Below, piece by piece: positions 16,501-33,278 of a DNA stretch of 46,582 bases. Location of the stretch: contig VBOY01000071.1 in NCBI GenBank assembly GCA_005893295.1, forward strand, positions 1 to 46,582, given 5' to 3'. Position 1 is the first letter of the stretch. Each line of letters begins with the position of its first letter. The notes beneath the pieces were generated by a model. The model did no database searches, was not told where the DNA came from, and worked only from the letters and a program-made list of their open reading frames with translations. The translations under genes were made by a program, and so were the position numbers. This DNA is from Candidatus Eiseniibacteriota bacterium (GTDB lineage Bacteria > Eisenbacteria > RBG-16-71-46).

Positions 16501-17552
16501 TTGTAAGCCTCGAGGCGCTGCCGCTGACCCCCAGCGGCAAGATCGACCGCCGTGCCCTCCCCTCTCCCAGGAGCATCGGGCCGGCCCTCGACGGCGCCGG
16601 CATCGCTCCGCGCACCCCAACGGAGGAGATCCTCGCCGGAATCTGGTCGCAGCTCCTGCGAATCGAGCGGGTCGGGCGGGAAGACAATTTTTTCGACCTG
16701 GGCGGGCACTCCCTCCTGGCGATGCGGGTGGCGGTGCGCTTGCGGCGCCTCTTTGGTATCGAGCTGCCGCTGCGCTGCCTGTTCGACGCTCCGACGCTAC
16801 GCGGCTTGGCCGCACGCGTCGAGCAGGCCGGCCGCTCCCCGACTCCGCCCCTCGTGCCGGCCACGCCGGCCCAGCGGCTCAGACCCTCCTACGCGCAGCG
16901 GCGCCTCTGGTTCCTGCATCGCCTCGAGCCGCACAGCCCGGCCTACAACATCGCCAACGCGATTCGCGTCGAGGGAAAGCTCGACGTCAAGGCGATCGGG
17001 AGCGCGCTCTCGGAGATCGTGCGGCGCCATGAAGCGCTGCGGACGCGTTTCGAGGAAGGGCCGGACGGCCCCGTCCCGCTCGTCGACCCTCCTGCGCCGG
17101 TCGCGCTGACCATCGAGGATCTGACCGGATTGGCTCCCGACAGCCGGGAGGGCGAGGCGGCGCGGCTGGCCGGCCGCGCCGCCCGCGAGTCTTTCGATCT
17201 GGCGCACGGCCCGTTGCTCCGGGTGCGACTCCTGCGCCTGGGACCCGCGGACCACATCCTCATCGTCGTAATCCACCACATCGCCGCCGACGGCTGGTCG
17301 ATGGGCGTCCTGGTCCGGGAGCTGGCGGCGGCATACGCCGCCCATGCCCGCGGCGCGACGCTACCGACGCGGACTGGGCGGCATGGCAGCGGGCCTGGCT
17401 TGAGGGCGGAGAGATGGAGAGGCAGCTCGCTTGGTGGCGTACCGAGCTGGACGGCCTCGAACCCCTCGCTCTTCCCACCGACCGGCCGCGCTCCGGGCGG
17501 CCGACCTACGCCGGGGCGTCCCTCGAGGTACGGCTGGATGCGGATCTCGTAG
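13545..17552 (+). CDS. NRPS B, first part: C-A(Gln-like)-PCP-C (frameshifted)
   Basis: ATG 13545 overlaps the previous stop. After a linker of about 45 residues come C3 (about 50-485; HHIVADGWS, L-accepting look), A3 (about 505-1010), PCP3 (LGGHSL, Ser about 1056) and the N-terminal half of C4 (HHIAADGWSMG). A3 reads D-A-W-Q-F-G-L-I-D-K, which I recall as a Gln code. From about residue 1275 the translation turns into non-family sequence (LPTRTGRHGSG...) and stops at 17552. The true continuation of C4 (ADWAAWQRAWLEGGE) is in another frame from 17369. Against sister C domains, the codons for about six residues (ELPVQY) are replaced by 2 nt, a net loss of 16 nt. Originally this was surely one gene with the next entry (13545-27316, about 4590 residues). 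Confidence 0.9.
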   Translation: MSDGPSVTDEPDRPAGEILAGEELQLLDALLDAEGVATCRTPCIPKLGARVAPLSSAQRRLWFLQEIDPLSSAYTISGAVLLRGDLDLAALQAALDGVVARHEVLRTTFESDAGEPRQRVHAAMPVVLRRTPGDASLPAAESARVAAELAHPAWDLGRGPLVRAAVVEFSPREHSLVIAMHHIVADGWSIGILLRELGALYNAGLAHLPPSLPEPPVQYADYALWQRQWLEREVLDEELRYWKQQLAGAPERLDLPADGPQPATRGRRGAQQPLSLSAELTESLKALGRREGATLFMTLLAAFQALLHRYTGQDDIVLGTPVAGRHQSEVEGLIGFFVNTLVLRSDLSGDPTFVQLLGRVREVALGAYAHQDLPFEQLVEALRPARDMRHTPLFQVMFALQNAPAEELHLHRLSSTLLPIDVPTAKFDLTLNLAEEGPLLSGTFEYDADRFASATVLRMAGHFQTLLEAIAAHPWTRLSRLPLLTEKESHQLLADREPLHDGAPGRCAHQCFEEQAERTPEAVAVEFQERMLTFGELDQRANQLAHLLRGMGVGSDDVVGLHMERSLEMVVGLLGIQKAGGAYLPLDPSYPRERRSFMLRDARAVLLLTQTGLQDDLPGTAAPIIAVDDRWKLLEGHSRAAPAGSPRPESLAYVIYTSGSTGSPRGVMISHRALGNHMRWMAAAFPLAESDRVLQKTPTSFDASVWEFYAPLIAGARLILARPEGHQDAAYLIDTVQQQGITTLQLVPSMLALLLEDEGVRSCTSLKRVFCGGEVLPWEMQERFFAQLPAADLINLYGPTEATIDATFWACRKSGPRRKVPIGSPIANLRAYVLDSRLQLLPLGVPGELHLAGDGLARGYRGDPAWTAQRFVPDPFSAAAGARLYRTGDLARRLAGGELEFLGRIDHQVKMRGLRVDPQEIEAVLAEHPAVSKAAVVACEDPAGSASQGPRLVAYLAPVPGKAPTPEDLRSFLGERLPRFMIPAVFVSLEALPLTPSGKIDRRALPSPRSIGPALDGAGIAPRTPTEEILAGIWSQLLRIERVGREDNFFDLGGHSLLAMRVAVRLRRLFGIELPLRCLFDAPTLRGLAARVEQAGRSPTPPLVPATPAQRLRPSYAQRRLWFLHRLEPHSPAYNIANAIRVEGKLDVKAIGSALSEIVRRHEALRTRFEEGPDGPVPLVDPPAPVALTIEDLTGLAPDSREGEAARLAGRAARESFDLAHGPLLRVRLLRLGPADHILIVVIHHIAADGWSMGVLVRELAAAYAAHARGATLPTRTGRHGSGPGLRAERWRGSSLGGVPSWTASNPSLFPPTGRAPGGRPTPGRPSRYGWMRIS
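17361..17371 (+). other. Frameshift/deletion point inside condensation domain C4
   Basis: The upstream frame reads ...RGATLP up to 17366 and the downstream frame resumes at 17369 with ADWAAWQ. Sister domains in this window read LPELPVQYADWAAW or similar, so about 16 nt are missing. It may be an assembly or sequencing error or a real inactivating deletion. Confidence 0.85.
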
Positions 17553-20500
17553 GGAGGCTGACGGGCCTGGCGCGGTCGGAGGGAGCGACGCTGCACATGG
17601 CCCTGCTCGCGGCCTTCGCCGCCGTGCTCGGGCGCTGGTCGGGGCAACGCGATTTCGGGATCGGCACGCCGGTCGCGGGGCGCAGCCGCGAGGAGGCGGA
17701 GCCGCTCATCGGCTGCTTCGTCAACTCCCTCGTGGTGCGGGCACGATTGGGGGGTGACCGGCTTCCCTACCGCGAGCTGCTCGGGCGGATCCGCGAGGCG
17801 GCCCTCGGAGGGTATGCCAACCAGGATGTCCCTTTCGAGCGCGTCGTCGAGGAGCTCCAACCCGACCGCGACCTGTCGCGCACGCCGCTTTTCCAGGTCA
17901 TGTTCATCCTGCAGAACGCCCCGGCCGGCGAGCTGGACCTCGGTGGCGGCGTCCGCTTGACCCCCTTCGACGCCCCCATCGAGACGTCCACGTTCGATCT
18001 GACGCTGTCGCTTGCACCGCTGGGCGATGCCCTGGACGGCTTCATGGAGTACAGCACCGAACTCTTCGAGGAAGCGACGATAAGGCGCCTGTGGGACCAC
18101 TTCGTCCGGCTCCTCGAGAGTGTCGCCGACGACCCGGCGGCGGATGTCCGCCGGGCGCGCCTGCTCGGCTCCGACGAGTATGTCCGCATCGTCCAGGAGT
18201 GGAGCGGCCGAAACCGGGTCGGCTCCGCCGACCGCCTGGTCCATGAGCTGTTTGCCGAGCAGGCGGTGGCGGAACCCGAGCGCCTCGCGGCCGTTCTCGG
18301 CGACCGGCGAGTGACCTACGGCGAGATTCACGAGCGGTCCGACCGTCTCGCCGCGCGTCTCGCGGAACATGCCGTCGGACCGGAGTCGCGGGTCGGGCTG
18401 TGCGTGCAACGCTCCCCCGAGCTGCTGGTGGGCCTGATGGCCGTGCTCAAGGCGGGCGGCGCCTTCGTCCCACTGGACCCGGAGCATCCGCGCGATCGTC
18501 TCGCCTTCGCGCTGCGGGACGCCGGCGCACGCGTCGTACTGGCGACCGGCGCGAGCGCCACCCTGGTCGAGGGTCCAGGTCGCGAGATCATCCGGCTCGA
18601 CGACGAGCGGTCTTATGCGGCCGGCCCGCTGCGCCCCCGGCGGCGCCCCTCCCCAGCGGGCCTCGCCTATGTCATCTACACCTCGGGCACGACCGGCAGG
18701 CCGAAAGGGGTGATGGTCGCCCACGGCGCTCTCTCCGCCGCCTATTTGGCCTGGGAGCGGCTTTACGGCTTCCCGGGGATTCGCAGTCACCTCCAGATGG
18801 CCGGGGTCGGCTTCGACGTCTGCACCGGCGACGTCCTGCGGGCCCTCTGCTCCGGCGGCACCCTGGTGTTCTGCGAGCGCGAGCAGCTGCTCGATTCCGA
18901 GCGTCTCTTCGAGCTGGCGCGGCGCGAGCAGGTCGAGTTCGCCGAGTTCGTGCCGGCGGTCCTGCGCCCGCTCGCAGCCTATGCCCGGAAGGGCGGCCGG
19001 CGGCTCCCCTCCGTGCGCCTGGCGGTCGTCGGCTCGGACCTCTGGACGGCAGCGGAGATCGCCGAGTTCCGAGCGGTCTTCGGGCCCGGCACGCGGCTCG
19101 CGAACGGCTACGGGGTCACCGAGGCGACGATCGACTCCACCTGCTGGTTCGTCGGCGACGGAGTCGCCGCCGGTAACCCGCCCATCGGTCGCCCGCTCGC
19201 GCACACCACCGTCTACGTGCTGGACGACCGCTTCGAGCCGGTGCCCGCGGGGATCACGGGCGAGCTTTTCCTGGGCGGCCCGGCGGTGGCTCGTGGTTAC
19301 ATCGGCAGGCCCGACGCGACCGCCGAGCGCTTCCTGCCGGACCCGTTCGGCGAGCCCGGCGACCGGTTGTACAGAACCGGCGACCGCGCTCGCTATACGG
19401 CGGATGGGTGTCTCCTCTTCGCCGGCCGCTTGGACGACCAGGTGAAGATCCGCGGCCTGCGTGTCGAGCCGGCCGAGGTCGAGACGCTCCTTGCGTCCTT
19501 CGACTCGGTCGCCGCCTGCGCCGTCGTCCCGCGGCGCGACCCCCGCGGCGCCCCGTGCCTCGCCGCCTACGTCGTTCCTCGGGATGGCACTTCCTTCGAC
19601 CCCGAAGCGGCGCGGCGCCTCCTGCGCGCGGAGCTACCCGAGGCGATGGTGCCCGCGGCCATCGTCGGGCTCGAGGCGCTGCCACTCACTCTGAACGGCA
19701 AGGTCGATCGAAGCAAGCTGCCCGAACCGGAATGGGGAGTGTCCGGCGCCTACGAGCCGCCGCGCACCGCCACCGAGCTGGCGGTCGCGGCAGCGTTCGC
19801 CCAGGTGCTCGAGCGCGCGCGGGTGGGTGCGGGCGATGATTTCTTCGCCCTGGGAGGCCACTCTCTCCTGGCGACTCAGGTGATCTCCCGGCTCCGGGCG
19901 GCGCTTGGGGTGGAGCTGCCTCTCCGGGCGATCTTCGAAGCGCCCACGGTGCGGGCCCTGGCGGCGTGCGTCGGAGCGCCCGGCGAGAGCGGCGCTCCAC
20001 CGCCCGTGGGCCGCGCCACCGAGGAGGAGCGCCGACGGCCGTCGTATGCGCAGCGGCGGCTCTGGTTCCTCGACCGCCTCGAGCCGGGGAGCGCGGCCTA
20101 CAACCTGCCGTCCTCGATCCTCCTCGAAGGCGATCTCGACGTGGCCGCGCTGGAGCGCTCCTTCGGCGAGCTGGTGCGGCGACAAGAGGCTCTGCGGACG
20201 CGGTTCGTCGAAGGGCCCGACCCACCGGAACAGGTCATCGATGCCCCCGCCGCGCTCCAACTCGGCTCCGAGGATCTCTCGGGTCTGCCCGAGGGGATGC
20301 GGCAGCGCGCGGTGGAGCGCCTGACGCGGGAGGAGGCGCGGCGGCCGTTCGACCTCGCCCGCGGGCCGCTGCTGCGCGCGCGCCTGCTCCGTCTGGAACC
20401 GGTGCGACACCTGCTCCTCGTGACCGTGCATCACATTGCGGCGGATGGCTGGTCCATGGGCCTGCTCGTGCGCGAGCTCGGCCTCCTCTACGGCGCTTAC

Positions 20501-23500
20501 TGCCGGGGCCACGAGAGCCCGCTCCCGGAGCTCCCGGTGCAGTATGCCGATTGGGCCGCCTGGCAGCGCGCCTGGCTCGCGGCGGGCACCATGGAGCACC
20601 AGCTCGCCTACTGGCGCGCGGAGCTGGAAGGGGTCGAACCGCTCGCACTCTCCTCCGATCGGCCCCGCCCGGCTCGGCCGACTCACGCCGGCGCCCAGAT
20701 CCCGGTGCGGTTGCCGGCGGCGCTGCGCGCGGCGCTGCAGAGGCTTGCCGGCGAGGAGGGAGCCACGCTCACCATGGCGCTGCTCGCCGGCTACGCCGCG
20801 GCCCTCGGGCGCTGGTCGGGGCAGAAGGACTTCGCCGTCGGCATCCCGGTCGCCAACCGCAGGACGCTCGAGGCGGAGTCGCTCGTCGGCTTCTTCGTCA
20901 ACACCCTGGCCGTGCGCCTGCGAGTCGGCGGATCCGGCCTCACGTTTCGCCGACTGCTCGGCCGGGTGCGCGAGGCGGCCCTGGGCGCCTACGCGCATCA
21001 GGACGTGCCGTTCGAGCGGGTCGTCGAGGAGCTCCAGCCCGAGCGGTACCTCGGCCACAACCCCGTTGTCCAGACACTCTTCGCGCTCCAGAACGCCCCG
21101 GTGGGTGCGATCGCCTTGCCCGGCCTCTCCCTGGTCTACGAGGAACCCGACACGGGCGTGACGCGCTTCGACGTCGAGCTGTTCCTTGCCGAGACTCCGT
21201 CCGGCCTGGAAGGGACCCTCAACTACAGCACCGAGCTGTTCGACCGCGAAACCGTCGAGCGCTTCTCTGAAAACTTCGCAGCGTTCCTCCAGTCGGGGGT
21301 GGAGAACCCCGACCGCGCCCTGGGGGACCTCCCGGCGCTCGCGCCGGCGCAGCTCCACCGGGTCCTGGCGGAGTGGAACGCAGCCCGCGAGCCTTACCCC
21401 GATCCGCCCGTCGTCCAGGCGCTTTTCGAGCGCCTCGCGGCCCTCGATCCCGAGGCCCCCGCAGCCTTCTGCGGCGACGCCTGTCTCTCCTACGGTGAGC
21501 TCAATGCGCGCGCCAACCGGCTCGCCCGCTTCTTGCGAAGGCAGGGAGTCGGCGCCGAGAACCTGGTCGCCGTGGGCCTCGAGCGCTCGTTCGACATGCT
21601 CGCGGCGCTCCTGGCGATCCTGAAGGCGGGCGCCGCCTACGTCCCCGTCGATCCCGAGTACCCGCTGGATCGCATCGCCCTGATCTTGGAGGACGCCCGG
21701 ACGCCCGTCGTTCTCACTCAGGCGTCCCACGCCGGCCGGCTGCCCGGGCGCGCGGCGCGTGCCCTCTTGCTCGACGAGGACTGGGAGGCGATCGCCCGCG
21801 AGGATCCCGGCGATCTCGGCCTCGACGTGCCTCCCGACTCGCTCGTCTATTCCGTCTACACCTCGGGCTCCACCGGGCGGCCCAAGGGGGTCGCCATGAC
21901 CCACCGCGCCATCGCCAATCTCCTCTCCTGGCAGAGGCGGGATTCCGGCAGGCTCGGGGCCCTCCGCACCCTCCAGTTCGCGTCCCTTTCCTTCGACGTC
22001 TCGTTCCAGGAGATCTTTTCGACGCTCACGGCGGGGGGCGCGATCGTGCTCGTGACCGAGGAGGAGCGGCGCGACGCGACGCGCCTGCTTCGCCTCATGG
22101 CCGCGCACCGGGTCCAGCGTCTCTTCCTTCCCTTCGTCGCCTTGAACCAGCTGGCGGAGACGGCCCAGTCCGCGGGCCTCTCCCCCGCGGACCTCAAGGA
22201 GATCAACACCGCCGGCGAGCAGCTCCGGATCACTCCCGCCCTCCGGGCCTTCTTCGGGAAGCTGCCCGGCTGCCGGCTGGTGAACCACTACGGCCCCAGC
22301 GAGACGCACCTCGTGACGGCCTTCGAGATGGAAGGGGATCCCTCCCGCTGGCCGGAGCTTCCCTCCATCGGACGACCGATCCCGAACGCGCCCGTCTTCC
22401 TGCTCGACGACGCCGGGCGACCCGTCCCCATCGGAGTCCCGGGTGAGCTGTGCGTGGGCGGGGCGGGTCTCGCCCGCGGCTACCACGCGCGGCCGGAGCT
22501 CACCGCGGAGCGTTTCGTACCCGATCCCTTCTCGGGCGAGGCGGGAGCGCGCCTCTACCGCACGGGCGACCTGGCGCGCTTCCGGACCGACGGCAACCTG
22601 GAGTTCCTCGGCCGGCTCGACCTGCAGGTGAAGGTGCGAGGCTATCGCGTCGAACCGGGCGAGATCGAGGCTGCCCTCTCCCGGCATCCTGCCGTCCGCC
22701 AGGCGGTCGTCGCGGCGCACGAGCACCGGGGCGGGAAGCGGCTGGCGGCTTACGTGCTCCTCCACGAGGGAAAGTGCGCCGCGCCGGCCCAGCTGCGGGA
22801 GCACCTCGCCCGCGAGCTGCCCGAGTTCATGGTGCCGGCGGCGATCCTGGTCCTCGAGGCGCTGCCCGTGACGCCCAACGGTAAAGTGGACCGCTTGGCC
22901 CTTCCCGAGCCCGAATGGGGCGCCGCGGCCACCTATATCGCCCCGCGCACCCCCCAGGAAGAGATCGTGTGCGGCATTTTCGCGGAGGTGCTCGGACTGG
23001 AGCGCGTCGGCGTCGCCGACAACTTCTTCGACCTGGGCGGGCACTCACTGCTGGCGACCCAGGTGATATCCCGGGTTCGGCGGGCGTTCGACGCGGAAGT
23101 GCTGCTGCGAATCCTGTTCGAGTCACCGACCCCGGCGGGGGTCGCCGCCGCGGCGGCACGGAACGTCGGTACGCCGGCTCTCCCACCCATCCGCCGCGCG
23201 GCCGAACCGGAAAGGCGGACGCTCTCCTATGCCCAGCGCCGCCTCTGGTTTCTGCACCAGCTCGAGCCGGCCTCGGGCGTGTACAACCTCCCCGTGGCGC
23301 TGCGCCTCGAGGGGGAGCTGGACATCGCCGCCTTGGGGCGCGCACTGAGCGCGATGGTGCAGCGGCACGAGGCGCTGCGGACCCGGATCGTCGAGGGGCC
23401 AAACGGGCCCGAGTCGATTGCCGACGACCCGTTCGATCTACTCCTGGAAGCGGAGGACCTCTCCCGTGCGGCCGGTCCGCCCGCGGCGGCGGCGCACCAA

Positions 23501-26500
23501 CAGCTCGCCGAAGAGGCGGCACGGCCTTTCGACCTGGCACGCGGGCCGCTGGTTCGCGTGCGGCTCCTGCGACTGGGCCCCGGGGATCACGTGCTGTCGG
23601 TGGTGGCACATCACATCTCGGCGGACGGCTGGTCCATGGGCGTGCTCGTACGCGATCTGGGCGTGCTCTACGCGGCCTTCACCAAGGGCCGTCCGAATCC
23701 ACTGAGGGAGATGGAGGTCCAGTACCCGGACTGGGCGGCGTGGCAGCGGGCCTGGCTGGAGGGAGGGGAGCTCGACCGGCAGCTCGCCTACTGGCGCGCG
23801 GAGCTGGAGGGCGCGCCGCGGGCGCTGGAGCTCCCCACCGACCGCGCCCGGCCGGCCACCGCGACCTGGAGAGGAGCAACGATCCCGGTGGCTCTCGAAG
23901 GCCGGCTGCACGCCCGTCTGCAGCAACTCGCCCGATCGGCAGGCTCTACGCTCCACATGGCGCTCCTGGCCGGTTATGCGTGGACTCTCATGCGTCAGGG
24001 GTCGCAACGCGACGTGGTCGTCGGGACGCCGGTGGCCAATCGGCGCGCCGCGGAAGCCGAGCCGCTGGTCGGTTTCTTCGTGAACACCCTGGCGGTCCGC
24101 GTGTGCGCCGGCGGGCTAGGAATGACCTACCGCGACCTGCTGTCTCGGGTGCGCGCCGCCTGCCTCGGAGCCTACGCGAACCAGGACGTGCCGTTCGAGC
24201 GCGTCGTCGAGGAGATCCAGCCCGAGCGCTCCCTCAACCGTGCGCCCGTTTTCCAGACCGCCTTCGCGCTGCAGAACGCCCGACTGCCGCCCATCGATCT
24301 TCCGGGCTTGCGGGTGACGCCGTTCGAGGTGGACTCCGCCACGGCGAAGTTCGACCTCATGCTTACCCTCGAGGAAACCGCCGAAGGCCTGGCGGGCGCT
24401 TTCGAATACAACACCGATCTGTTCGATCGCGACACCGTCCAGGGGATCTTCTCGCGCTTCGCCAGGGTCCTCGCGGGGGGCGTCACGGCGCCCGACACTC
24501 CCCTCGTGGAGATTCCCCTCCTCGACGAGGTGGAGCGGCGCCGCGTTCTGGTGGAATGGAATCCGCCCGCTCCCGGCCCGCAGGGGCCGGCACTCCTGCA
24601 CGAGCTGTTCGAGCGGCAGGTACGGCGCACGCCCGACGCGCCGGCGCTGGCCCGTGGGCCCGAAACACTGGGCTACTCCGAGCTCGAGGCGCGGGCAAAC
24701 CGCCTGGCCAACCACCTCCGCTCGCTCGGCATCGGTCCCGAGCGGCGGGTCGCGGTGAGCCTCGAGCGCTCGCCGGAGGCGATTCTCGCCATCCTCGCCG
24801 TCCTCAAGGCCGGGGGCGCCTACGTGGCGCTCGATCCCGGGCAGCCGGAGGAGCGCCTTGGCTGGCTCGTCCGGGACAGCGGCGCCAGCCTCGTCGTGGC
24901 CGACAGCCGATCTTCCGCCAAGATCGCGGCCGGTGGCGCGCCCCTCGTCCTCCTGGACCGGGATGCGGCGGCGATCGCGCGGCACCTGGAAAGTTGCCCG
25001 CCCGCCCGTGCCCGGCCGCAAAACCTGGCGTACGTGCTCTACACGTCCGGCTCCACCGGCCGGCCGAAGGGCGTGGGCATCGAGCACCGGCAGATCGTGA
25101 GCTACGTCGATGCGGCCATCGAGCGACTCGGCATCCGCCCGGGATGGCGCTTCGCCCTGCTTTCCACCTTGGCAGCCGACCTGGGCAACACCGCAATCTT
25201 TCCGTGCCTCGCAACGGGGGGCTGCCTCCACCTCTTCCCGCCGGAGATCGCCCTCGACCCTGCGGGGGTCGAAGCTTATTGCGACGAGCACCTCATCGAC
25301 TGCCTCAAGATTGTCCCGTCGCACCTGCAGGCCTTGCAAGGTGGAGCGCGTCCCGAGCGCGTGTTGCCGCGCCGCCTCCTCATCCTCGGCGGCGAGGCCA
25401 CCGGGGGGGCGCGTCTGGCGGCGCTGCGCCAGCGGGCGCCCGATTGCCGTATTGCCAATCACTACGGGCCCACCGAGACGACCGTCGGCGCCGTGGCGGG
25501 ATTCCTCGGTGCAGCGGATGCCGCGCGTGCCGGCGCCCCCCTCGGGCGCCCCCTGGGCAACACCCGCGCCTACGTCCTCGACGAGCGGCTGCAGCCGCTC
25601 CCCGCGGGCGTGCCGGGGGAGCTGTTCCTCTCCGGCGCCGGCGTTGCCCGCGGCTACCTCGGCTCTCCCGGCCTGACCGCCGAGTGCTTCGGTCCCGACC
25701 CGTACTCAGCGGTGCCGGGCGAGCGCCTCTACCGGACGGGGGATCGGGCCCGCTGGCTGACCGACGGACGCCTCGAATTCCTCGGCCGGGGCGACGGGCA
25801 GGTGAAGGTGCGCGGGTACCGCGTCGAGACGGGTGAGGTGAAAACGGCCATCGAGAGCCATCCCGGCGTGCGGCAAGCGGTGGTCGTCGCCCGCGCGGAC
25901 GCTGCGGCCGGGGCCCGTCTTGTCGCTTACGTCGTCCCCGAACCCGCCGCCTCTCCCACCGTCGACGGACTGCCGCGCCGGAGACTGCCGAACGGCCTGG
26001 CGCTCGCCGAGCTCAACCGCAACGAGACCGACTACATCTTCCGCGAAATCTTCGAGCGGCGGGCCTACGTCCGGCACGGCATCACACTGCGCCGCGGCGA
26101 CATCGTGTTCGACGTCGGGGCCAACGTGGGCCTGTTCACGGTCTTCGCGAGCCTCGCCGGCGCCCCGGCAGTCGTCTTCGCGTTCGAGCCCAATCCGCAC
26201 CTCCTGCCGATGCTGCGCGCCAACGCGTCCTTGTACGCGCCGGGCTCGAGGATCTTCCCCGTCGGGCTGGCCGCCGAGGAGCGGACCGCCCCGTTCACGT
26301 TCTTCCCGGGATTCTCCCTCCTCTCGGGCCTCTATGCCGATGCCGAGGCCGACCAGCAGGTCGTGAAATCGTTCCTTGAAAACCAGGGGCGCGCCGGCGC
26401 CGAGGGCGCCGCGGGCCTCGCGCGGGAGGCCGAAGCGCTGCTCGAGGGGCGCTTCGCCGGCCGGACCTTCGACGTGCCGCTGCGGGTCCTCTCGGAGGTC

Positions 26501-27316
26501 ATCGCCGAGCAGGGCGTCGAGCGCATCGACCTTCTCAAGGTCAACGCCGAGAAGGCGGAGCTCGACGTGCTGCTCGGCCTGAGGGAGAAGGACTGGCCCC
26601 GGATCAGCCAGATCGTGGTCGAGGTCGACCTGACCGCGAACCTCGCTCCCATCCTCGCGCTCCTTAAGGAGCACGACTTCGAGGTTCTCGTCGATCGGGA
26701 TCCGCTGCTCGAGCGGACACAGCTGTGCTACGTCTATGCCGCGCGGCGGGCTTCGGGGCGCACTCTCGCTCCCGGGACCGGGCCGTCCACGGGATTGCTC
26801 GAGCTCGGCGTGGCTCTCCTGGCGCCCGACGTCCTGCGCGCCCATCTGGCCCGCTCGCTGCCCGAGCCGATGCTCCCTTCCGCCTGGGTCTTCCTCGAGT
26901 CCCTGCCGCTCACCGCCAACGGCAAGCTTGACCGGTCCCGCCTGCCCGAGCCGGAGGCGCGGGAGGTCGCCTACGTGGCGCCTCGAGGCGAGCTGGAGCG
27001 AGCGGTGGCCGGCATCTGGTCCGAGTTGCTCGGACGGGAGCGCATCGGCGCAGAGGACAACTTCTTCGACCTGGGAGGCCACTCCCTGCTGCTGGCGCGC
27101 GTGCACGCGCGGCTGCGCGACACCTTGAGCGCGGACCTGTCGGTGGTGGACCTGTTCCGCTTCCCGACCGTCGCCTCCCTCGCCGCGCGCCTCGCGGGGC
27201 AGACAGCGGACCTCAGCGCGCCGCAGGCCGACCGAAACCGCGGCGCCCGGCGGCGCGCCGCCATCCGGCCTCGTGCGGGAAGGCGCCGGGCCGCGACGCC
27301 TGGAGGCGACGCATGA
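17414..27316 (+). CDS. NRPS B, second part: (C)-A(Orn-like)-PCP-C-A(Pro-like)-PCP-C-A(Asp-like)+oMT-PCP
   Basis: The first ATG (17414) is internal to C4; coding in this frame begins at 17369. Order: end of C4; A4 (about 18230-19730) with code D-V-G-E-V-G-G-I-D-K, 8/10 to Orn; PCP4 (Ser 19862); C5 (HHIAADGWS); A5 (about 21400-22900) with D-V-Q-L-N-A-H-L-V-K, 8/10 to the Pro code; PCP5 (Ser 23045); C6 (HHISADGWS); A6 (about 24590 on) with D-L-T-K-I-G-H-V-G-K, close to Asp codes. A6 is split after core A8 by an FkbM-type methyltransferase (25960-26756) and finishes with the A10 core (TANGKLDRS). PCP6 has LGGHSLL (Ser 27083). No E domain follows PCP4, PCP5 or PCP6, so L-residues are expected. The basic C-terminal tail (RRRAAIRPRAGRRRAATPGGDA region) could be a docking element. 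The next gene is 118 nt downstream. Confidence 0.92.
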   Translation: MERQLAWWRTELDGLEPLALPTDRPRSGRPTYAGASLEVRLDADLVGRLTGLARSEGATLHMALLAAFAAVLGRWSGQRDFGIGTPVAGRSREEAEPLIGCFVNSLVVRARLGGDRLPYRELLGRIREAALGGYANQDVPFERVVEELQPDRDLSRTPLFQVMFILQNAPAGELDLGGGVRLTPFDAPIETSTFDLTLSLAPLGDALDGFMEYSTELFEEATIRRLWDHFVRLLESVADDPAADVRRARLLGSDEYVRIVQEWSGRNRVGSADRLVHELFAEQAVAEPERLAAVLGDRRVTYGEIHERSDRLAARLAEHAVGPESRVGLCVQRSPELLVGLMAVLKAGGAFVPLDPEHPRDRLAFALRDAGARVVLATGASATLVEGPGREIIRLDDERSYAAGPLRPRRRPSPAGLAYVIYTSGTTGRPKGVMVAHGALSAAYLAWERLYGFPGIRSHLQMAGVGFDVCTGDVLRALCSGGTLVFCEREQLLDSERLFELARREQVEFAEFVPAVLRPLAAYARKGGRRLPSVRLAVVGSDLWTAAEIAEFRAVFGPGTRLANGYGVTEATIDSTCWFVGDGVAAGNPPIGRPLAHTTVYVLDDRFEPVPAGITGELFLGGPAVARGYIGRPDATAERFLPDPFGEPGDRLYRTGDRARYTADGCLLFAGRLDDQVKIRGLRVEPAEVETLLASFDSVAACAVVPRRDPRGAPCLAAYVVPRDGTSFDPEAARRLLRAELPEAMVPAAIVGLEALPLTLNGKVDRSKLPEPEWGVSGAYEPPRTATELAVAAAFAQVLERARVGAGDDFFALGGHSLLATQVISRLRAALGVELPLRAIFEAPTVRALAACVGAPGESGAPPPVGRATEEERRRPSYAQRRLWFLDRLEPGSAAYNLPSSILLEGDLDVAALERSFGELVRRQEALRTRFVEGPDPPEQVIDAPAALQLGSEDLSGLPEGMRQRAVERLTREEARRPFDLARGPLLRARLLRLEPVRHLLLVTVHHIAADGWSMGLLVRELGLLYGAYCRGHESPLPELPVQYADWAAWQRAWLAAGTMEHQLAYWRAELEGVEPLALSSDRPRPARPTHAGAQIPVRLPAALRAALQRLAGEEGATLTMALLAGYAAALGRWSGQKDFAVGIPVANRRTLEAESLVGFFVNTLAVRLRVGGSGLTFRRLLGRVREAALGAYAHQDVPFERVVEELQPERYLGHNPVVQTLFALQNAPVGAIALPGLSLVYEEPDTGVTRFDVELFLAETPSGLEGTLNYSTELFDRETVERFSENFAAFLQSGVENPDRALGDLPALAPAQLHRVLAEWNAAREPYPDPPVVQALFERLAALDPEAPAAFCGDACLSYGELNARANRLARFLRRQGVGAENLVAVGLERSFDMLAALLAILKAGAAYVPVDPEYPLDRIALILEDARTPVVLTQASHAGRLPGRAARALLLDEDWEAIAREDPGDLGLDVPPDSLVYSVYTSGSTGRPKGVAMTHRAIANLLSWQRRDSGRLGALRTLQFASLSFDVSFQEIFSTLTAGGAIVLVTEEERRDATRLLRLMAAHRVQRLFLPFVALNQLAETAQSAGLSPADLKEINTAGEQLRITPALRAFFGKLPGCRLVNHYGPSETHLVTAFEMEGDPSRWPELPSIGRPIPNAPVFLLDDAGRPVPIGVPGELCVGGAGLARGYHARPELTAERFVPDPFSGEAGARLYRTGDLARFRTDGNLEFLGRLDLQVKVRGYRVEPGEIEAALSRHPAVRQAVVAAHEHRGGKRLAAYVLLHEGKCAAPAQLREHLARELPEFMVPAAILVLEALPVTPNGKVDRLALPEPEWGAAATYIAPRTPQEEIVCGIFAEVLGLERVGVADNFFDLGGHSLLATQVISRVRRAFDAEVLLRILFESPTPAGVAAAAARNVGTPALPPIRRAAEPERRTLSYAQRRLWFLHQLEPASGVYNLPVALRLEGELDIAALGRALSAMVQRHEALRTRIVEGPNGPESIADDPFDLLLEAEDLSRAAGPPAAAAHQQLAEEAARPFDLARGPLVRVRLLRLGPGDHVLSVVAHHISADGWSMGVLVRDLGVLYAAFTKGRPNPLREMEVQYPDWAAWQRAWLEGGELDRQLAYWRAELEGAPRALELPTDRARPATATWRGATIPVALEGRLHARLQQLARSAGSTLHMALLAGYAWTLMRQGSQRDVVVGTPVANRRAAEAEPLVGFFVNTLAVRVCAGGLGMTYRDLLSRVRAACLGAYANQDVPFERVVEEIQPERSLNRAPVFQTAFALQNARLPPIDLPGLRVTPFEVDSATAKFDLMLTLEETAEGLAGAFEYNTDLFDRDTVQGIFSRFARVLAGGVTAPDTPLVEIPLLDEVERRRVLVEWNPPAPGPQGPALLHELFERQVRRTPDAPALARGPETLGYSELEARANRLANHLRSLGIGPERRVAVSLERSPEAILAILAVLKAGGAYVALDPGQPEERLGWLVRDSGASLVVADSRSSAKIAAGGAPLVLLDRDAAAIARHLESCPPARARPQNLAYVLYTSGSTGRPKGVGIEHRQIVSYVDAAIERLGIRPGWRFALLSTLAADLGNTAIFPCLATGGCLHLFPPEIALDPAGVEAYCDEHLIDCLKIVPSHLQALQGGARPERVLPRRLLILGGEATGGARLAALRQRAPDCRIANHYGPTETTVGAVAGFLGAADAARAGAPLGRPLGNTRAYVLDERLQPLPAGVPGELFLSGAGVARGYLGSPGLTAECFGPDPYSAVPGERLYRTGDRARWLTDGRLEFLGRGDGQVKVRGYRVETGEVKTAIESHPGVRQAVVVARADAAAGARLVAYVVPEPAASPTVDGLPRRRLPNGLALAELNRNETDYIFREIFERRAYVRHGITLRRGDIVFDVGANVGLFTVFASLAGAPAVVFAFEPNPHLLPMLRANASLYAPGSRIFPVGLAAEERTAPFTFFPGFSLLSGLYADAEADQQVVKSFLENQGRAGAEGAAGLAREAEALLEGRFAGRTFDVPLRVLSEVIAEQGVERIDLLKVNAEKAELDVLLGLREKDWPRISQIVVEVDLTANLAPILALLKEHDFEVLVDRDPLLERTQLCYVYAARRASGRTLAPGTGPSTGLLELGVALLAPDVLRAHLARSLPEPMLPSAWVFLESLPLTANGKLDRSRLPEPEAREVAYVAPRGELERAVAGIWSELLGRERIGAEDNFFDLGGHSLLLARVHARLRDTLSADLSVVDLFRFPTVASLAARLAGQTADLSAPQADRNRGARRRAAIRPRAGRRRAATPGGDA
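25960..26756 (+). other. FkbM-family methyltransferase domain embedded in A6
   Basis: About 265 residues are inserted between adenylation cores A8 and A10. The SAM-binding motif is IVFDVGANVGLFTVF, followed by FAFEPNPHLLPML and the FkbM-family signature region LLKVNAEKAELDVLLGL. FkbM-type domains are O-methyltransferases, unlike the N-methyltransferases usually found at this A-domain position. On an Asp-activating module the likely target is the side-chain carboxylate, giving a methyl ester (inference). Confidence 0.85.
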
Positions 27317-27434: not shown

Positions 27435-30400
27435 ATGAGCCGAGAGAATCCCCTCGACCTCGAGGTCGCCATCATCGGCATGGCGGGCCGCTTTCCCGGC
27501 GCGGATTCCATCGAGGCGTTCTGGCGAAACCTCCGAGCAGGAGTGGAATCGATCCGCGACCTGTCGGACGACGAGCTGCGAGCGGCCGGAGTGGACCCCG
27601 CAACCCTTGCCGACCCGCGCCTCGTACGGCGAGCGGCGGACCTAAGGGGTGCCGATCGCTTCGACGCCGCGCTGTTCGGCTTCACGCCCCGCGAAGCGGA
27701 GCTCATGGACCCGCAATTCCGCGTCTTCCTCGAGGACTCCTGGACGGCACTGGAGAACGCCGGCTACCTGTCCGACCGGCATGACGTGCGCGTGGGCGTG
27801 TTCGCGGGCGCCGGGCCCAATACCTACCTCCTCAACAACGTCTACTCGAACCCGCAGGCCGCCCAGACGCTCGGTGCGTTCCAGACTTCCATCGGCAACG
27901 AGCGGGACTATCTGGCCACCCATGTCTCCTACCGTCTCGACCTGAGGGGGCCGAGCTTGGTCGTCCAGACGGCCTGCTCGACCAGTCTGGTCGCCATCCA
28001 CCTGGCGTGCCAGAGCCTGCTCAACCATGAGTGCGACATCGCCCTCGCCGGCGGCGTTTCCATCAGCGTGCCCCAAACGGCAGGATACCTGTACGAGGAG
28101 GGTGGCATCGCCTCCCCGGACGGCCATTGCCGCGCCTTTGACGAGGCCGCGACCGGATGCGTGAAAGGGAACGGCTCGGGGATCGTCGTCCTCAAGCGTC
28201 TCGCGGAGGCCCTGCGTGACGGCGACACCCTGCGCGCGGTCATCAAGGGCTCGGCCGTGAACAACGACGGCAGCCTGAAGCTGGGCTTCACGGCGCCCAG
28301 CGACGCGGGCCAGGCCGGGGTCATCACCGAAGCCCTCTCCGTGGCGGGCGCGGACGCGGCCAGCGTCACCTATGTGGAGGCGCACGGCACCGGCACCACC
28401 CTCGGCGACCCCGTGGAAGTGGCGGCCCTGGCGCGGGCCTTCGGCGCTCCGGCCGGCCGCATCGGCCGCTGCGCCCTCGGGTCGGTCAAGACCAACGTGG
28501 GCCACCTGGATGCGGCGGCCGGCGTGGCCGGGCTGATCAAAACGGTGCTCTCCCTCGAGCATCGGGAGATCCCTCCCAGCCTGCACTTCCGGCGCCCCAA
28601 TCCGAAGATCGACTTCGCAGCCACCCCCTTCTACGTCAATGCCGACCTGCGTGACTGGCCGGGCGACGGCACTCCGCGCCGCGCCGGGGTGAGCTCCTTC
28701 GGCATCGGCGGCACCAACGCTCATCTGATCCTCGAGGAGCCGCCCGCCTCGGCCCCGTCGGGGCGCGCCCGCCCGGCACAAGTATTCGTCCTTTCGGCGG
28801 CCACCGAGTCGGCGCTGTCGGCGGCCTCGGAGAGCCTCGCAGCGCTGCTGGAGTCGGGCGCCTCTCCGAACCTGGCGGATGCCGCCTACACGCTGCAGGT
28901 CGGACGAAAGCGCCTGCCGTGGCGCCGGGCGGTTACGGGAAGAGACACGGCGGAAGTGATCGCCGCCCTCCGGCAAGGCCCGCATTCGTCACGCGCTCGC
29001 CATGACCTGCGCCGCGGCGCCGAAATCGCCTTCCTCTTCCCGGGCCAGGGTGCGCAGCACCCGGGGATGACCGCCGAGCTGTACCGCCACGAGGCGGCGT
29101 TCCGCGATCCCTTCGACCGGTGCGCCGACCGGCTCCGTCCCCTGCTCGGCCTCGATCTGCGCCGTCTCGTCTTCGCTGCCGACGAGGGTTGGGAGACGGC
29201 GGAAGCGCGCCTCCGCGAGACCTCCCTCTCTCAACCGGCGCTGTTCGCCGTCGAGTTTGCGCTCGCCCGGCTCTGGATCTCCTGGGGTGTCCGGCCCGTG
29301 GCCATGGCCGGCCACAGCATCGGGGAATACGTCGCCGCCTGCCTGGCGGGCGTGCTGTCGTTGGAGGAAGCGCTCGGGCTGGTGGCCGAACGAGGCCGGC
29401 TCATGGGAAGCCTGCCCCGCGGTGCCATGCTCGCCGTGCAGGCCACCGAGGCGGACCTGGCGGCGCGGCTGACTGGCTATCCGGCGCTGTCGGTGGCCGC
29501 GATCAACGGTCCGTCATCGTGCGTCGCCTCGGGGCCGGAGGCGGAGATCGGGCGGCTCGAGGCCGAGCTCGCCGGCACCCCAACGGCACACCGCCGCGTC
29601 CACACGTCCCACGCCTTCCACTCCGCCATGATGGACCCGATCCTCGGGGCGTTCGCGGAGCGCGTCCGGCAAACCCGTCTCAGCGCCCCCTCCATCCCGT
29701 TTCTTTCCAACCTGACCGGGACTTGGATTACGGCGGAGCAGGCGACGGATCCGGCTTACTGGGTGGGTCACCTCCGGAGTGCGGTGCGCTTCGCGGACAA
29801 CCTCGCAACCCTGCTCACCGACCCCGCGCGCGTGCTGCTCGAGGTCGGCCCCGGGACGTTGCTCACGTCCCTGGCCCGTCAGCAGGGAAGCCCCGATATC
29901 ACCCTGGTCGCATCGCTGCGGCACCCTAAGCAGGGCGGCCCCGAGGAAGTCGCCCTGCTCGAGGCGCTGGGGAAGCTTTGGTGCGCCGGCATCGACATCG
30001 ACTGGGAAGCGTTTCACACGGGGTTCGGCCGCCGGCGTGTCCCCCTCCCGACCTATCCCTTCGAGCGGCGGCGCCACTGGATCGAGCCAGGGTCCGGCCC
30101 GGGCGCGGCGGAGGCGACAGGTGTGCCGGCCAAGGAGCCGGACATCGCCCGCTGGTTCTACGCTCCGGGCTGGAAACGATCGCTGACGCGCGGGGCAGCG
30201 CCGGAGGCGGAGCCGCCGTGGCTCGTTTTCGATGACGGTTCGAAGCTCGCGCGCGCCGTCGTCGACCTGGCCGTGGCGCGCGGGGGCTCCGTCACGAGCG
30301 TCCTTGCGGGCGCCGAATTCCTGCACGAGGGAGGAGAGCGGTTCCGGATCGACCCGCGCCGCCGGGAGCACTACGACCGGCTGCTCCGAGAGCTGCACGA

Positions 30401-31580
30401 GACGGGGCGATCGCCGGGGCGCATCGTGCACTTGTGGTGTGCCGACGGATCGCGAATCGACCCCGCGTCCGCCCAGGATGTTGGGTTCTTCTCGCTGCTC
30501 GCTCTCTTCCAGGCGATGGGGGCCGTGGCGGCAGCGGATGACGTCCGGTTGGCGGCCGTGGCGGGCGGACTCTTCGATGTCGTCGGCGAGGAAGTCGTCC
30601 GTCCCGAGCGGGCCACGCTCGTGGGGGCCTGCCGCGTCGCGTCTCAGGAATACCCGGGGTTGACCTGCCGGCTGGTGGACGTGGGAGAGGCGGACATCAC
30701 CCTGGCAGCCCGCAACATCGCCGACGAGCTCGAGGCGGACGATGGCGAGAGAGTGGTCGCCTGGCGCGGCGGCCACCGCTGGGTCCCTGCCTATCAAAAG
30801 ATCCGGCTCGAGCCGCCATCCGGCGGGCCGCCGGTGGTCCGGGCGGGCGGAGCGTTCCTGCTGACCGGCGGCACGGGGCCGCTCGAGCTGGCGATTGCGG
30901 AGCGCCTGGCGGCGGCGGGGGCGAAAGGCATCGCGTTCATCGAATGCGACGGGGGCGCCGAAGCGGCGGTGGCCGGGCTGCGTGACCGCGGCATCGAGGT
31001 CCTCTGCTCCCCGGCCCTCGTCACCCGCCGCGAGGCTCTCGCCGGGGCCGTCGCCGCGGCCCACACCCGCTTCGGCCGCCTCGACGCCATCTTCCACACG
31101 GCCGGCGCCATCGGGGGCGGAATGATCCAGCTCAAGGAGCGCGAGGCCGCCGAGCGCCTGCTGGCGCCGCGACTCGACGGCGCGCGACTCCTGGCCGGCC
31201 AGCTCGAACCCGGCGCGACGCTCGTGCTCTTCTCCTCGGCCATTTCGGCGACCGGGGTCTTCGGTCAGGTCGATTTCTGCGCCGCCAGCGCGTTTCTGGA
31301 TGCCTTCGCCCACTCCCGGAGGCGGAGCCGCCGTGGCTCGTTTTCGATGACGGTTCGAAGCTCGCGCGCGCCGTCGTCGACCTGGCCGTGGCGCGCGGGG
31401 GCTCCGTCACGAGCCGATCGACGAGGGGGTCGAGGCGCTCTGGAGGGCCCTCGATCTGGGTCTTCCCCAGGTGGTCGTGTCGACGCAGGATCTCGACGAA
31501 CTTGTGGCCCAGGCGACTTCGTCCTCGGTGGCCGAGTTTCTCGAGGGGGTCGGCCGGGCGACTCCGCAGCAGGATGGTGA
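27435..31580 (+). CDS. Type I PKS C: KS-AT(malonyl)-degenerate KR, frame broken near 31316
   Basis: KS (about 8-430) has TACSTS (Cys about 181), EAHGTGT and KTNVGHLDAAAG. AT (about 530-820) has FPGQGAQ, GHSIGEY (Ser about 628) and HAFHS, the pattern of malonyl-CoA specificity. The KR (about 905-1290) is eroded. The NADPH motif reads TGGTGPLEL, losing the last Gly of GxGxxG. The usual Lys is Arg (APRLDG, about 1246). The active Tyr is Phe and the Asn is Ser (GQVDFCAASAFLD, about 1281 and 1285); only the Ser (about 1268) remains. From 31316 a 99-bp copy of 30201-30299 replaces the end of the KR and shifts the frame; residues after about 1294 are not real PKS sequence. The ACP continues in another frame (31417-31941). 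ATG 27435 has only a distant GGAG. Expected role: add one C2 unit to the Asp-terminated chain, leaving a beta-ketone. Confidence 0.92.
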   Translation: MSRENPLDLEVAIIGMAGRFPGADSIEAFWRNLRAGVESIRDLSDDELRAAGVDPATLADPRLVRRAADLRGADRFDAALFGFTPREAELMDPQFRVFLEDSWTALENAGYLSDRHDVRVGVFAGAGPNTYLLNNVYSNPQAAQTLGAFQTSIGNERDYLATHVSYRLDLRGPSLVVQTACSTSLVAIHLACQSLLNHECDIALAGGVSISVPQTAGYLYEEGGIASPDGHCRAFDEAATGCVKGNGSGIVVLKRLAEALRDGDTLRAVIKGSAVNNDGSLKLGFTAPSDAGQAGVITEALSVAGADAASVTYVEAHGTGTTLGDPVEVAALARAFGAPAGRIGRCALGSVKTNVGHLDAAAGVAGLIKTVLSLEHREIPPSLHFRRPNPKIDFAATPFYVNADLRDWPGDGTPRRAGVSSFGIGGTNAHLILEEPPASAPSGRARPAQVFVLSAATESALSAASESLAALLESGASPNLADAAYTLQVGRKRLPWRRAVTGRDTAEVIAALRQGPHSSRARHDLRRGAEIAFLFPGQGAQHPGMTAELYRHEAAFRDPFDRCADRLRPLLGLDLRRLVFAADEGWETAEARLRETSLSQPALFAVEFALARLWISWGVRPVAMAGHSIGEYVAACLAGVLSLEEALGLVAERGRLMGSLPRGAMLAVQATEADLAARLTGYPALSVAAINGPSSCVASGPEAEIGRLEAELAGTPTAHRRVHTSHAFHSAMMDPILGAFAERVRQTRLSAPSIPFLSNLTGTWITAEQATDPAYWVGHLRSAVRFADNLATLLTDPARVLLEVGPGTLLTSLARQQGSPDITLVASLRHPKQGGPEEVALLEALGKLWCAGIDIDWEAFHTGFGRRRVPLPTYPFERRRHWIEPGSGPGAAEATGVPAKEPDIARWFYAPGWKRSLTRGAAPEAEPPWLVFDDGSKLARAVVDLAVARGGSVTSVLAGAEFLHEGGERFRIDPRRREHYDRLLRELHETGRSPGRIVHLWCADGSRIDPASAQDVGFFSLLALFQAMGAVAAADDVRLAAVAGGLFDVVGEEVVRPERATLVGACRVASQEYPGLTCRLVDVGEADITLAARNIADELEADDGERVVAWRGGHRWVPAYQKIRLEPPSGGPPVVRAGGAFLLTGGTGPLELAIAERLAAAGAKGIAFIECDGGAEAAVAGLRDRGIEVLCSPALVTRREALAGAVAAAHTRFGRLDAIFHTAGAIGGGMIQLKEREAAERLLAPRLDGARLLAGQLEPGATLVLFSSAISATGVFGQVDFCAASAFLDAFAHSRRRSRRGSFSMTVRSSRAPSSTWPWRAGAPSRADRRGGRGALEGPRSGSSPGGRVDAGSRRTCGPGDFVLGGRVSRGGRPGDSAAGW
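30201..30299 (+). repeat. 99-bp direct repeat, copy 1 (native)
   Basis: It is identical over 99 bp to 31316-31414. Here it is in frame with the PKS (PPWLVFDDGSKLARAVVDL) and reads as the normal structural subdomain ahead of a KR, so this is the original copy. Confidence 0.93.
31316..31414 (+). repeat. 99-bp direct repeat, copy 2 (displaced, breaks the KR)
   Basis: It is an exact copy of 30201-30299 placed 1115 bp downstream, where the last 40-50 residues of the KR core are expected. The PKS frame before it, the native reading of the repeat, and the PKS frame after it are three different frames. No inverted ends or transposase are present. The length of exactly 99 bp suggests a k-mer-type assembly join (inference). 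Confidence 0.93.
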
Positions 31581-31941
31581 AGGGACCGATGTCTCGGCGC
31601 TCGAGTCCGACACCCAGCGCCGGGTCGCGGCGTTATGGTCCCGGCTTCTCGGCGTCGGACGGATCGGTCGGCAGGACAATTTCTTCGACCTCGGCGGGAA
31701 TTCGCTGCTCGCCATTCAGCTCGCCTCACACCTTCGCAAGGCGTTCGACATCGACCTGACGATCGCCCGATTGTTCGAGTCGCCCGACCTCGCGAGCCTC
31801 GCGGCCGCGGTGGAGGCGTCTTTGGAGGAGCGGCGCAAGGGCGAGGAGGTCGCCCGGCTACTGGAGGAAATCGAGAGTCTGTCGGAGGACGAGGTCCGAA
31901 CTGAGCTTACCCGCGCCGTCGGAGCAGAGGGGGGGAGGTAG
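31417..31941 (+). CDS. PKS C, C-terminal part: KR end and ACP
   Basis: This is the continuation of the PKS in a different frame. It starts with the usual end of a KR (EGVEALWRALDLGLPQVVVS) and continues to an ACP with FFDLGGNSLL (Ser at 31702) and the post-Ser helix LFESPDLASLAAAVEAS. The tail LLEEIESLSEDEVRTELT is an acidic amphipathic helix of the kind used for docking to the next subunit. An internal GTG at 31471 is the first start codon but lacks support as a real start. The stop is 4 nt before the next gene. It should be read as part of one protein spanning 27435-31941. Confidence 0.88.
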   Translation: MDEGVEALWRALDLGLPQVVVSTQDLDELVAQATSSSVAEFLEGVGRATPQQDGEGTDVSALESDTQRRVAALWSRLLGVGRIGRQDNFFDLGGNSLLAIQLASHLRKAFDIDLTIARLFESPDLASLAAAVEASLEERRKGEEVARLLEEIESLSEDEVRTELTRAVGAEGGR

Positions 31942-31945
31942 CCCG

Positions 31946-33232
31946 ATGAGCGACGTGAACGACCGCCTGGCGAAGCTGAGCCAGGAGCAGCGGCGACTGC
32001 TGGAGAGGAAGCTGAGAGAGCGCGGCCTCGAGGCGCCGGGAGCCCGCCCGGTGCGCCGCGCGAACCCCGACTCCGCCGCAGCCGAGGAGCGGGAGCCGGA
32101 CGCCTGGCGCCGCCGGCCTCCGGAGCACCCCCTGCGCTTCAGTCTCTACTTCTTCTCGGACGACGGCTCGAAGGAGACCCAAGACAAGTACCGCCTGGTG
32201 CTGGAGAGCGCGCGCTTCGCCGACGAGCACGGCTTCGACGCGGTGTGGACGCCCGAGCGGCACTTCCAGGCTTTCGGAGGCCTCTATCCGAATCCGTCGG
32301 TGCTGGGAGCGGCGCTGGCCGCCATCACCTCCCGCGTCGGCATCCGGGCCGGGAGCGTGGCGCTGCCGCTGCACCATCCCGTCCGGGTCGCCGAAGAGTG
32401 GTCGGTGGTCGACAACCTCTCCCACGGGCGGGTGGCACTCTCCTTCGCTTCGGGCTGGCACCCCGATGATTTCGTTCTCTCTTCGAGCCCCTACGGCGAA
32501 CGGAAGGAGGTCATGTTCCGCGGCATCGAAACGATTCGGCGTCTTTGGGCGGGTGAGGCAATTCCCTTGGAGGGGCCGGAGGGACGGGTCGTGGAAATCC
32601 GCATCCTCCCCCGCCCGGTGCAGCCCGAGCTCCCCATCTGGGTAACCAGTGCGGGCAGCCCCGAGACCTGGGAGCGCGCCGGAGCCATCGGCGCCAACGT
32701 GCTCGCCGCGCTGGTCGGTTATCCGCCCGAGGAGCTCGCGGACCAGATCCGGCGCTACCGGCGGGCCCGCGCCGCCGCCGGGCACGACCCCGACCGGGGG
32801 ATCGTGACGATCGTCGTCCACACCTACGTCGGGACGGACAACGCGGAAGTGCGCGAGCGAGTGCGCGAGCCGATGACGAACTACCTGAAAACCTACCTCA
32901 AGCAGTTTCAGAGACTGGCGCTGGAGCCGACCCACGCCACCGAGCGCGACGCGCGCGACGTCGCGGCGCTGGCCTTCGAGCACTACTTCGACTCCAGCAC
33001 GCTGCTCGGGACGCCGAACAAGTGCGCCCGGATCGCGGACGCCGTCGCCCGGTGCGGGGCGGACGAGATCGCCTGTCTGATCGACTTCGGACTCGACGCG
33101 GACCTGGTGCTCGCAGCGCTCCCCCGGCTCGCCCAGCTGCGGGAGCACTACGCCGCCGGTCCGGCCCGGACCCAGAGAGCTTTCGACGGCAAGGCCCCGC
33201 CGGTCGTCGCCGGCGACGAGGTAAGTGCGTGA
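31946..33232 (+). CDS. Luciferase-like flavin-dependent monooxygenase (LLM class) with N-terminal docking-like helix
   Basis: The protein has 428 residues. The LLM domain runs from about 63 to 400, with WTPERHFQAFGGLYPNP, GSVALPLHHPVRVAEEW and LSHGRVALSFASGWHPDDF, typical of the secondary-metabolism branch of luciferase-like monooxygenases found in PKS/NRPS clusters. It would use reduced FMN and O2. In that branch MupA of mupirocin biosynthesis is linked to hydroxylation of the polyketide; Baeyer-Villiger chemistry also occurs in the wider family. Residues 5-29 (RLAKLSQEQRRLLERKLRER) match the N-terminal helices of NRPS F and G, so it probably docks to the PKS ACP or its neighbours and acts on a tethered chain (inference). 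ATG 31946 follows a strong GGGGGGAGG. It lies 4 nt after the PKS stop. Confidence 0.9.
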   Translation: MSDVNDRLAKLSQEQRRLLERKLRERGLEAPGARPVRRANPDSAAAEEREPDAWRRRPPEHPLRFSLYFFSDDGSKETQDKYRLVLESARFADEHGFDAVWTPERHFQAFGGLYPNPSVLGAALAAITSRVGIRAGSVALPLHHPVRVAEEWSVVDNLSHGRVALSFASGWHPDDFVLSSSPYGERKEVMFRGIETIRRLWAGEAIPLEGPEGRVVEIRILPRPVQPELPIWVTSAGSPETWERAGAIGANVLAALVGYPPEELADQIRRYRRARAAAGHDPDRGIVTIVVHTYVGTDNAEVRERVREPMTNYLKTYLKQFQRLALEPTHATERDARDVAALAFEHYFDSSTLLGTPNKCARIADAVARCGADEIACLIDFGLDADLVLAALPRLAQLREHYAAGPARTQRAFDGKAPPVVAGDEVSA

Positions 33233-33278
33233 CTCACTTTCAAGCGCGGCGCAGGCCGCAGACAAGGAGGACTCCCCG

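Follow-up and report, generated by a model that had tools for sequence, protein, structure and literature searches.

KtzH of the kutzneride pathway contains a side-chain O-methyltransferase located between motifs a8 and a9 of its adenylation domain, which acts on a carrier-bound amino acid, and O-methylation of Ser has been reported for it (PMC11355689). ColG of the columbamide pathway, with the domain order A-Ms-Mb-A, has a side-chain O-methyltransferase at the same site (PMC11355689). An FkbM-family domain with the motif DxGxNxG is present in module 16 of HtmB1, a nonribosomal peptide synthetase (NRPS) of the hangtaimycin pathway, and O-methylation was assigned to it by elimination, as deletion of the domain abolished the product (PMC10624959). 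EreM belongs to the same Pfam family, PF05050, and acts on a peptide (PMC9259500). In polyketide synthase (PKS) methyltransferases, the catalytic Glu is Gln where the 3-oxo acceptor needs no deprotonation (PMC10127204).

The window analysed here, a stretch of 46,582 nucleotides from a Candidatus Eiseniibacteriota bacterium, contains an NRPS module in which an FkbM-family domain interrupts an adenylation domain with an aspartate code. Judged from its sequence, this module of condensation, adenylation, FkbM and carrier domains probably loads L-Asp and methylates the side chain of the tethered residue to an Asp beta-methyl ester. A side-chain methyl ester had been predicted in a preliminary description of the locus, and comparative evidence points to it as the most likely product. 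The features of the module and of its downstream neighbour are as follows.

23225-24523, + strand: condensation domain of the same module as the FkbM insert (domain scan, Pfam)
24674-25807, + strand: adenylation core (A1-A7) with the Asp code D-L-T-K-I-G-H-V-G-K (PF00501, GrsA alignment, domain scan)
25025-25072, + strand: A3 motif of the Asp-coded adenylation core
25172-25201, + strand: AADLGNTAIF in the Asp-coded adenylation core
25784-25816, + strand: A8 motif GRGDGQVKVRG, flanking the insert on its upstream side
25919-25945, + strand: LVAYVVPEP strand between A8 and the insert
25961-26755, + strand: FkbM-family (PF05050) methyltransferase domain between A8 and A9 (profile matches, AlphaFold2)
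26108-26137, + strand: SAM-binding motif I, FDVGANVGLF
26177-26197, + strand: FEPNP motif
26528-26560, + strand: motif IV region DLLKVNAEKAE, with N195 (codon AAC, 26543-26545) where Asp is usual
26858-26893, + strand: A9 motif LPEPMLPSAWVF, downstream of the insert
26858-26947, + strand: remainder of the C-terminal adenylation subdomain beyond the insert (A9 and A10)
26918-26947, + strand: A10 motif NGKLDRSRLP
27002-27193, + strand: peptidyl carrier protein (PCP) of the Asp module (domain scan, Pfam)
27435-31941, + strand: next module, KS-AT-KR-ACP, for polyketide extension, its frame broken by an exact 99-bp duplication

Three NRPS modules lie in the open reading frame 17414-27316, and the last of them consists of the condensation domain, the adenylation core, the insert, the C-terminal rest of the adenylation domain and the PCP, the presumed carrier of the Asp thioester to be methylated. 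Alignment to GrsA returned the code DLTKIGHVGK, identical to the Asp-type code of the preliminary description. It is the established Asp code of the Stachelhaus scheme, and the adenylation domain is predicted to be Asp-specific. The FkbM domain lies inside the adenylation domain, as had been claimed, in the frame 25961-26755 of the same open reading frame. The interruption had been placed between A8 and A10; it can be narrowed to A8-A9, with both motifs intact around the insert. The site was also correctly equated with that of the N-methyltransferase of the window, the insert of the Leu module (40223-41242), which is likewise located between A8 and A9 and matches PF08242 and PF08241. The FkbM insert matches Pfam PF05050 (Methyltransf_21, FkbM) with 54.2 bits (cut-off 22.7, E=2.6e-14) and NCBIfam TIGR01444 with 82.5 bits (cut-off 37.7), and contains both membership motifs of the family, DxGxNxG (FDVGANVG) and FEP (FEPNP). 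Its protein, P0001, matches only PF05050 and none of the Methyltransf_11/12/25-type profiles of backbone N-methyltransferases (Mb).

The assembly line of the window begins with a fatty acyl-AMP ligase and is predicted to produce a lipopeptide. Its codes presumably specify Orn-like, Val, Gln-like, Orn-like, Pro and Asp residues, the last with FkbM, followed by a malonyl-type unit with a KR. After this unit we read an unassigned residue, N-methyl-Leu and Pro, on the same assumption. The PKS module expected directly downstream of the Asp module is present, with KS, AT and KR from position 27435 onward. A stand-alone luciferase-like monooxygenase of the MupA/Atu3671 type (TIGR04020, 31946-33229) and a haem-oxygenase-like PF14518 protein (33225-33962) follow between the PKS and NRPS genes, and both are kept with the cluster in the Acidobacteriota genome G125. 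The domain order C-A-FkbM-PCP-KS-AT-KR-PCP-monooxygenase-HO also occurs in G125, and the cluster architecture is shared with G125 and, to the end of the contig, with G191, with 68% identity of the methyltransferase. The FkbM-Asp module is therefore not a product of chance.

Two parts of the window probably contain assembly errors. Within the PKS gene, the segment for the KR includes a direct repeat (30201-30299 and 31316-31414), the second copy of which coincides with a frame break, and the ACP (31471-31941) lies in another frame. In the G125 relative (L113), the KS, AT, KR and ACP are all in one frame. Because the repeat is exactly 99 bp long and its copies are 100% identical, the duplication is a probable k-mer misassembly of the metagenome. 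The second frame break (17330-17552) is located in a condensation domain between the open reading frames 13545-17552 and 17414-27316. The counterpart of this condensation domain in L112 is continuous, and the break is probably an assembly or sequencing error as well, in which case the two frames belong to one gene.

FkbM domains at this site are common. When plasmids were searched with tblastn and genome contigs were scanned with an eight-domain alignment, dozens of them were identified between A8 and A9, in Cyanobacteriota, Actinomycetota, Pseudomonadota, Acidobacteriota, Gemmatimonadota, Myxococcota, Bacteroidota and Bacillota, and with further genomes the number rose to more than 60. This does not support the earlier view that the site normally belongs to N-methyltransferases, and an exceptional status of the FkbM insertion is ruled out by its spread across many phyla. 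Most of the interrupted domains are Thr-coded (DFWNIGMVHK) or Ser-coded (DVWHxSLxDK), as expected for the formation of O-methyl-Thr and O-methyl-Ser. The minority codes are Asp (DLTKxGHVGK), Glu-like (D-x-K-D-xxx-VDK), Gln, Asn, Tyr-like and unassigned. Recognised codes for aliphatic residues were found in none of the 64 readable FkbM-interrupted domains; N-methyltransferase insertions at the same site occur with Leu, Val/Ile-like and Gly codes in addition to polar residues. Two loci (L033 and L037) contain FkbM within Gln-coded (DAWQFGLIDK) adenylation domains, where methylation of the side-chain amide is possible. Four others (L010, L078, L038 and L043) combine a luciferase-like monooxygenase and FkbM in one adenylation domain (A-LLM-A-FkbM-PCP), which probably enables hydroxylation and then O-methylation of one residue.

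The acid-coded domains differ from the others in a motif that follows strand beta-4. The collected relatives usually have LKIDxE at this position, a motif on which FkbM membership does not rest, and the domain of the window has LKVNAE instead, with the exchange of Asp for Asn common to its subclade. In the first set of 47 domains, Asn follows LKI in the window domain and eight others, and the subsequent Glu is replaced by Gln in six more. All 15 Asp- or Glu-like-coded domains of this set carry either the Asn or the Gln, and both acids are kept in all 32 non-acid-coded domains. The assignment of the DTKD code to Glu is by analogy. The rule formed on the first set was correct for all 16 non-redundant domains with readable codes from new genomes (N or Q in 7/7 acid-coded and 0/9 non-acid-coded domains). 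Pooled, one of the two acids of LKI-D-x-E is neutralised by D->N or E->Q in 22 of 22 acid-coded domains and in none of 41 non-acidic ones. The raw Fisher values of 1.3e-12 for the first set and 8.7e-5 for the new genomes overstate the link, because shared ancestry leaves about two independent co-occurrences.

A second change concerns a conserved EVH of FkbM domains, in place of which the window has EVD (EVDLTANL, 26615-26644), as do the N-type Asp subclade and the monooxygenase-linked domains of L010 and L078. The E->Q motif is also frequent in FkbM domains that terminate PKS modules (AT-ACP-FkbM), as in L034, L075, L081, L091 and L035; E->Q alone is therefore not specific for acids. A KR was not seen in four of these five modules. 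Being without a KR, most of them would present an enolisable 3-oxo group, which is suggestive of enol-ether formation and no more than suggestive.

The structure of the FkbM domain predicted by AlphaFold2 has a class I methyltransferase fold (mean pLDDT 89.4, pTM 0.89); structure predictions covered sequences other than those from plasmids. In the model, residue 195 is positioned immediately after strand beta-4 (191-194), so N195 directly follows the strand in place of the usual Asp. In class I methyltransferases, the spot after beta-4 holds catalytic residues beside the methyl group of SAM. The best 50 Foldseek matches were generic class I methyltransferases only and did not separate FkbM from N-methyltransferase folds, and sequence searches identified no close relative in the PDB.

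A maximum-likelihood tree of FkbM domains was calculated with the motif columns removed. The first 15 acid-coded domains are united in a single group (93/79) that includes no domain of another code. Inside it, the nine N-type domains are a well-supported group (95/92), and a well-supported subgroup is formed by the Asp type (100/97). In a larger tree, the FkbM domain of the Asp-coded locus L123 is placed among the Ser/Thr types and has its own E->Q change, and an AU test rejects a single clade of all acid-coded domains (p=0.022). The trees thus indicate at least two origins of acid-type FkbM, not twenty-two. In the tree of adenylation cores, interrupted Asp-type cores are placed with five Asn-coded ones (SH-aLRT 92). 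Two of these five contain an FkbM domain from a different branch, and three are background adenylation domains. Glu-type cores form a separate well-supported group; nonetheless, the FkbM domains of the N-type Asp modules and of the Glu modules group together. Because Asp cores are sisters to Asn cores and yet their FkbM domains group with those of the Glu type, METHYLTRANSFERASE (the methyltransferase) tracks the acid and not the descent of the adenylation core. Adenylation cores are exchanged by recombination (PMC8097286), and the retention of the acid code with this FkbM branch therefore looks like functional matching.

Based on these comparisons, a mechanism of methylation can be proposed. 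The adenylation domain of the module would load L-aspartate, and Asp or peptidyl-Asp would be methylated while tethered to the module's own carrier protein. The FkbM domain would transfer the methyl group of SAM to the beta-carboxylate, giving the Asp beta-methyl ester. FkbM domains acting on Ser or Thr may retain both acids of LKIDxE, Asp and Glu, because these assist in removing the proton of the hydroxyl or in holding it in place. A carboxylate acceptor would already be ionised, and one of the acids may be dispensable or repulsive and become Asn, as in the window, or Gln. The loss of one of the two acids fits an ionised acceptor and thus favours methylation of the beta-carboxyl of carrier-bound Asp; an equivalent argument has been published for other methyltransferases, those of PKSs (PMC10127204). 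Methyl transfer to an ionised carboxylate also appears to fit the link between code and motif better than backbone N-methylation, for which the association with acidic codes has no evident reason. Methylation of the Asp amino group, with FkbM replacing the usual N-methyltransferase, would be consistent with the identical insertion point and with the reported activity of EreM, a member of the FkbM family that methylates the backbone amide nitrogens of a RiPP (PMC9259500). We nevertheless consider it unlikely, since FkbM-interrupted domains have codes for heteroatom side chains and no recognised aliphatic ones, unlike N-methyltransferase insertions, and since a Ser-coded adenylation domain at L019 holds both an FkbM domain and an N-methyltransferase, which suggests separate jobs.

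The monooxygenase and the haem-oxygenase-like protein just downstream, both retained in G125, could install a hydroxyl on Asp, and its O-methylation would result in methoxy-Asp. The sharing of one adenylation domain by a monooxygenase and FkbM in L010 and L078 agrees with such a reaction. However, the FkbM domains of these two loci keep the D/E motif, unlike the Asp type, and no luciferase-like monooxygenase was found in the 20-54 kb read of the other Asp-FkbM loci (L130-L142 and L115), which makes methoxy-Asp an improbable product. It is very improbable that the FkbM domain is an inactive or structural relic, as might be read from its off-consensus motif after beta-4 and the EVD of the N-type Asp subclade, because its SAM motifs are intact, it is conserved at 68% identity in the two Acidobacteriota genomes that share the cluster, and it also occurs in Asp modules of other phyla.

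For the beta-methyl ester, a masking role ahead of the PKS module had been suggested, which does not hold as a general explanation. Among Asp-FkbM modules with readable downstream sequence outside the cluster family of the window, a condensation domain comes next in L012, L013, L014, L136 and L142/L123, and no domain follows the PCP in the stretch read of L115 and L134. PKS-specific masking as a general role is ruled out by the condensation domain that follows most other acid-coded FkbM modules. In the stretches read of the Asp-FkbM loci outside the cluster family, no PKS follows the module and no luciferase-like monooxygenase was found nearby, so neither is a general partner. Cultured strains with an acid-coded FkbM module include Paraburkholderia ribeironis STM 7296 and Paenibacillus polymyxa M1. 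A Glu-type module precedes a PKS on the plasmid of the latter, pPPM1a; our literature search found no paper visibly naming the product of this plasmid. The argument that the ester prevents decarboxylation of a beta-keto acid was mistaken: the side-chain carboxyl of Asp is gamma, not beta, to the ketone formed by the next KS. Spontaneous decarboxylation is therefore not expected, and a KR domain also follows. As to cyclisation, the only obvious and plausible ring is a gamma-lactone closed through the KR-derived hydroxyl, and the methyl ester could promote its formation as well as block it.

We speculate, with little confidence, that the ester serves as an activated carboxyl instead of a cap, as in the aspartimide logic of PIMT, and that a neighbouring nucleophile displaces it, either during assembly or once the product has been released. 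In the window, the hydroxyl from the next KR would attack the ester, giving a gamma-butyrolactone, and in Asp modules before a condensation domain, attack by the next amide would give a succinimide or an iso-peptide. On this view, the acid modules with an FkbM insert would be units for ring closure that are built into the line.

If the assignment of the beta-methyl ester is correct, NRPS lines can place methyl esters on carboxylates one residue at a time, and the residue after beta-4 of an embedded FkbM domain separates hydroxyl from carboxylate methylation. This would provide a sequence rule for such modules in genome mining, an easy system for studying the adaptation of class I methyltransferases to acidic or neutral oxygen nucleophiles, and a possible engineering handle for ester-masked or cyclised Asp and Glu residues. 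A literature search, thin on subscription papers, found no paper on an interrupted adenylation domain that methyl-esterifies the side chain of Asp or Glu. FkbM at A8-A9 is itself common, and the unusual feature is the acid subclass with its neutralised residue.

Compared with the described systems, the module of the window resembles KtzH and ColG in the site of the insertion and in the predicted side-chain O-methylation. KtzH differs from it in having a Ser hydroxyl as the acceptor and an ether as the product. ColG also acts on Ser and contains a second, backbone N-methyltransferase; the A-FkbM-nMT order of the Ser-coded Okeania locus L019 is comparable to it. Module 16 of HtmB1 shares the FkbM family and differs in its acceptor, O-21, with no acid side chain mentioned in the accessible part of the description (PMC10624959). 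EreM, in contrast, is a stand-alone RiPP enzyme that methylates backbone amide nitrogen (PMC9259500). The Sti-type methyltransferase domains of the PKSs LynB2, BarF and JamN are not FkbM domains and act on 3-oxoacyl-ACP, yet in comparison with StiD and StiE they display the same replacement of Glu by Gln as part of the acid type, for an acceptor oxygen from which no proton has to be removed (PMC10127204).
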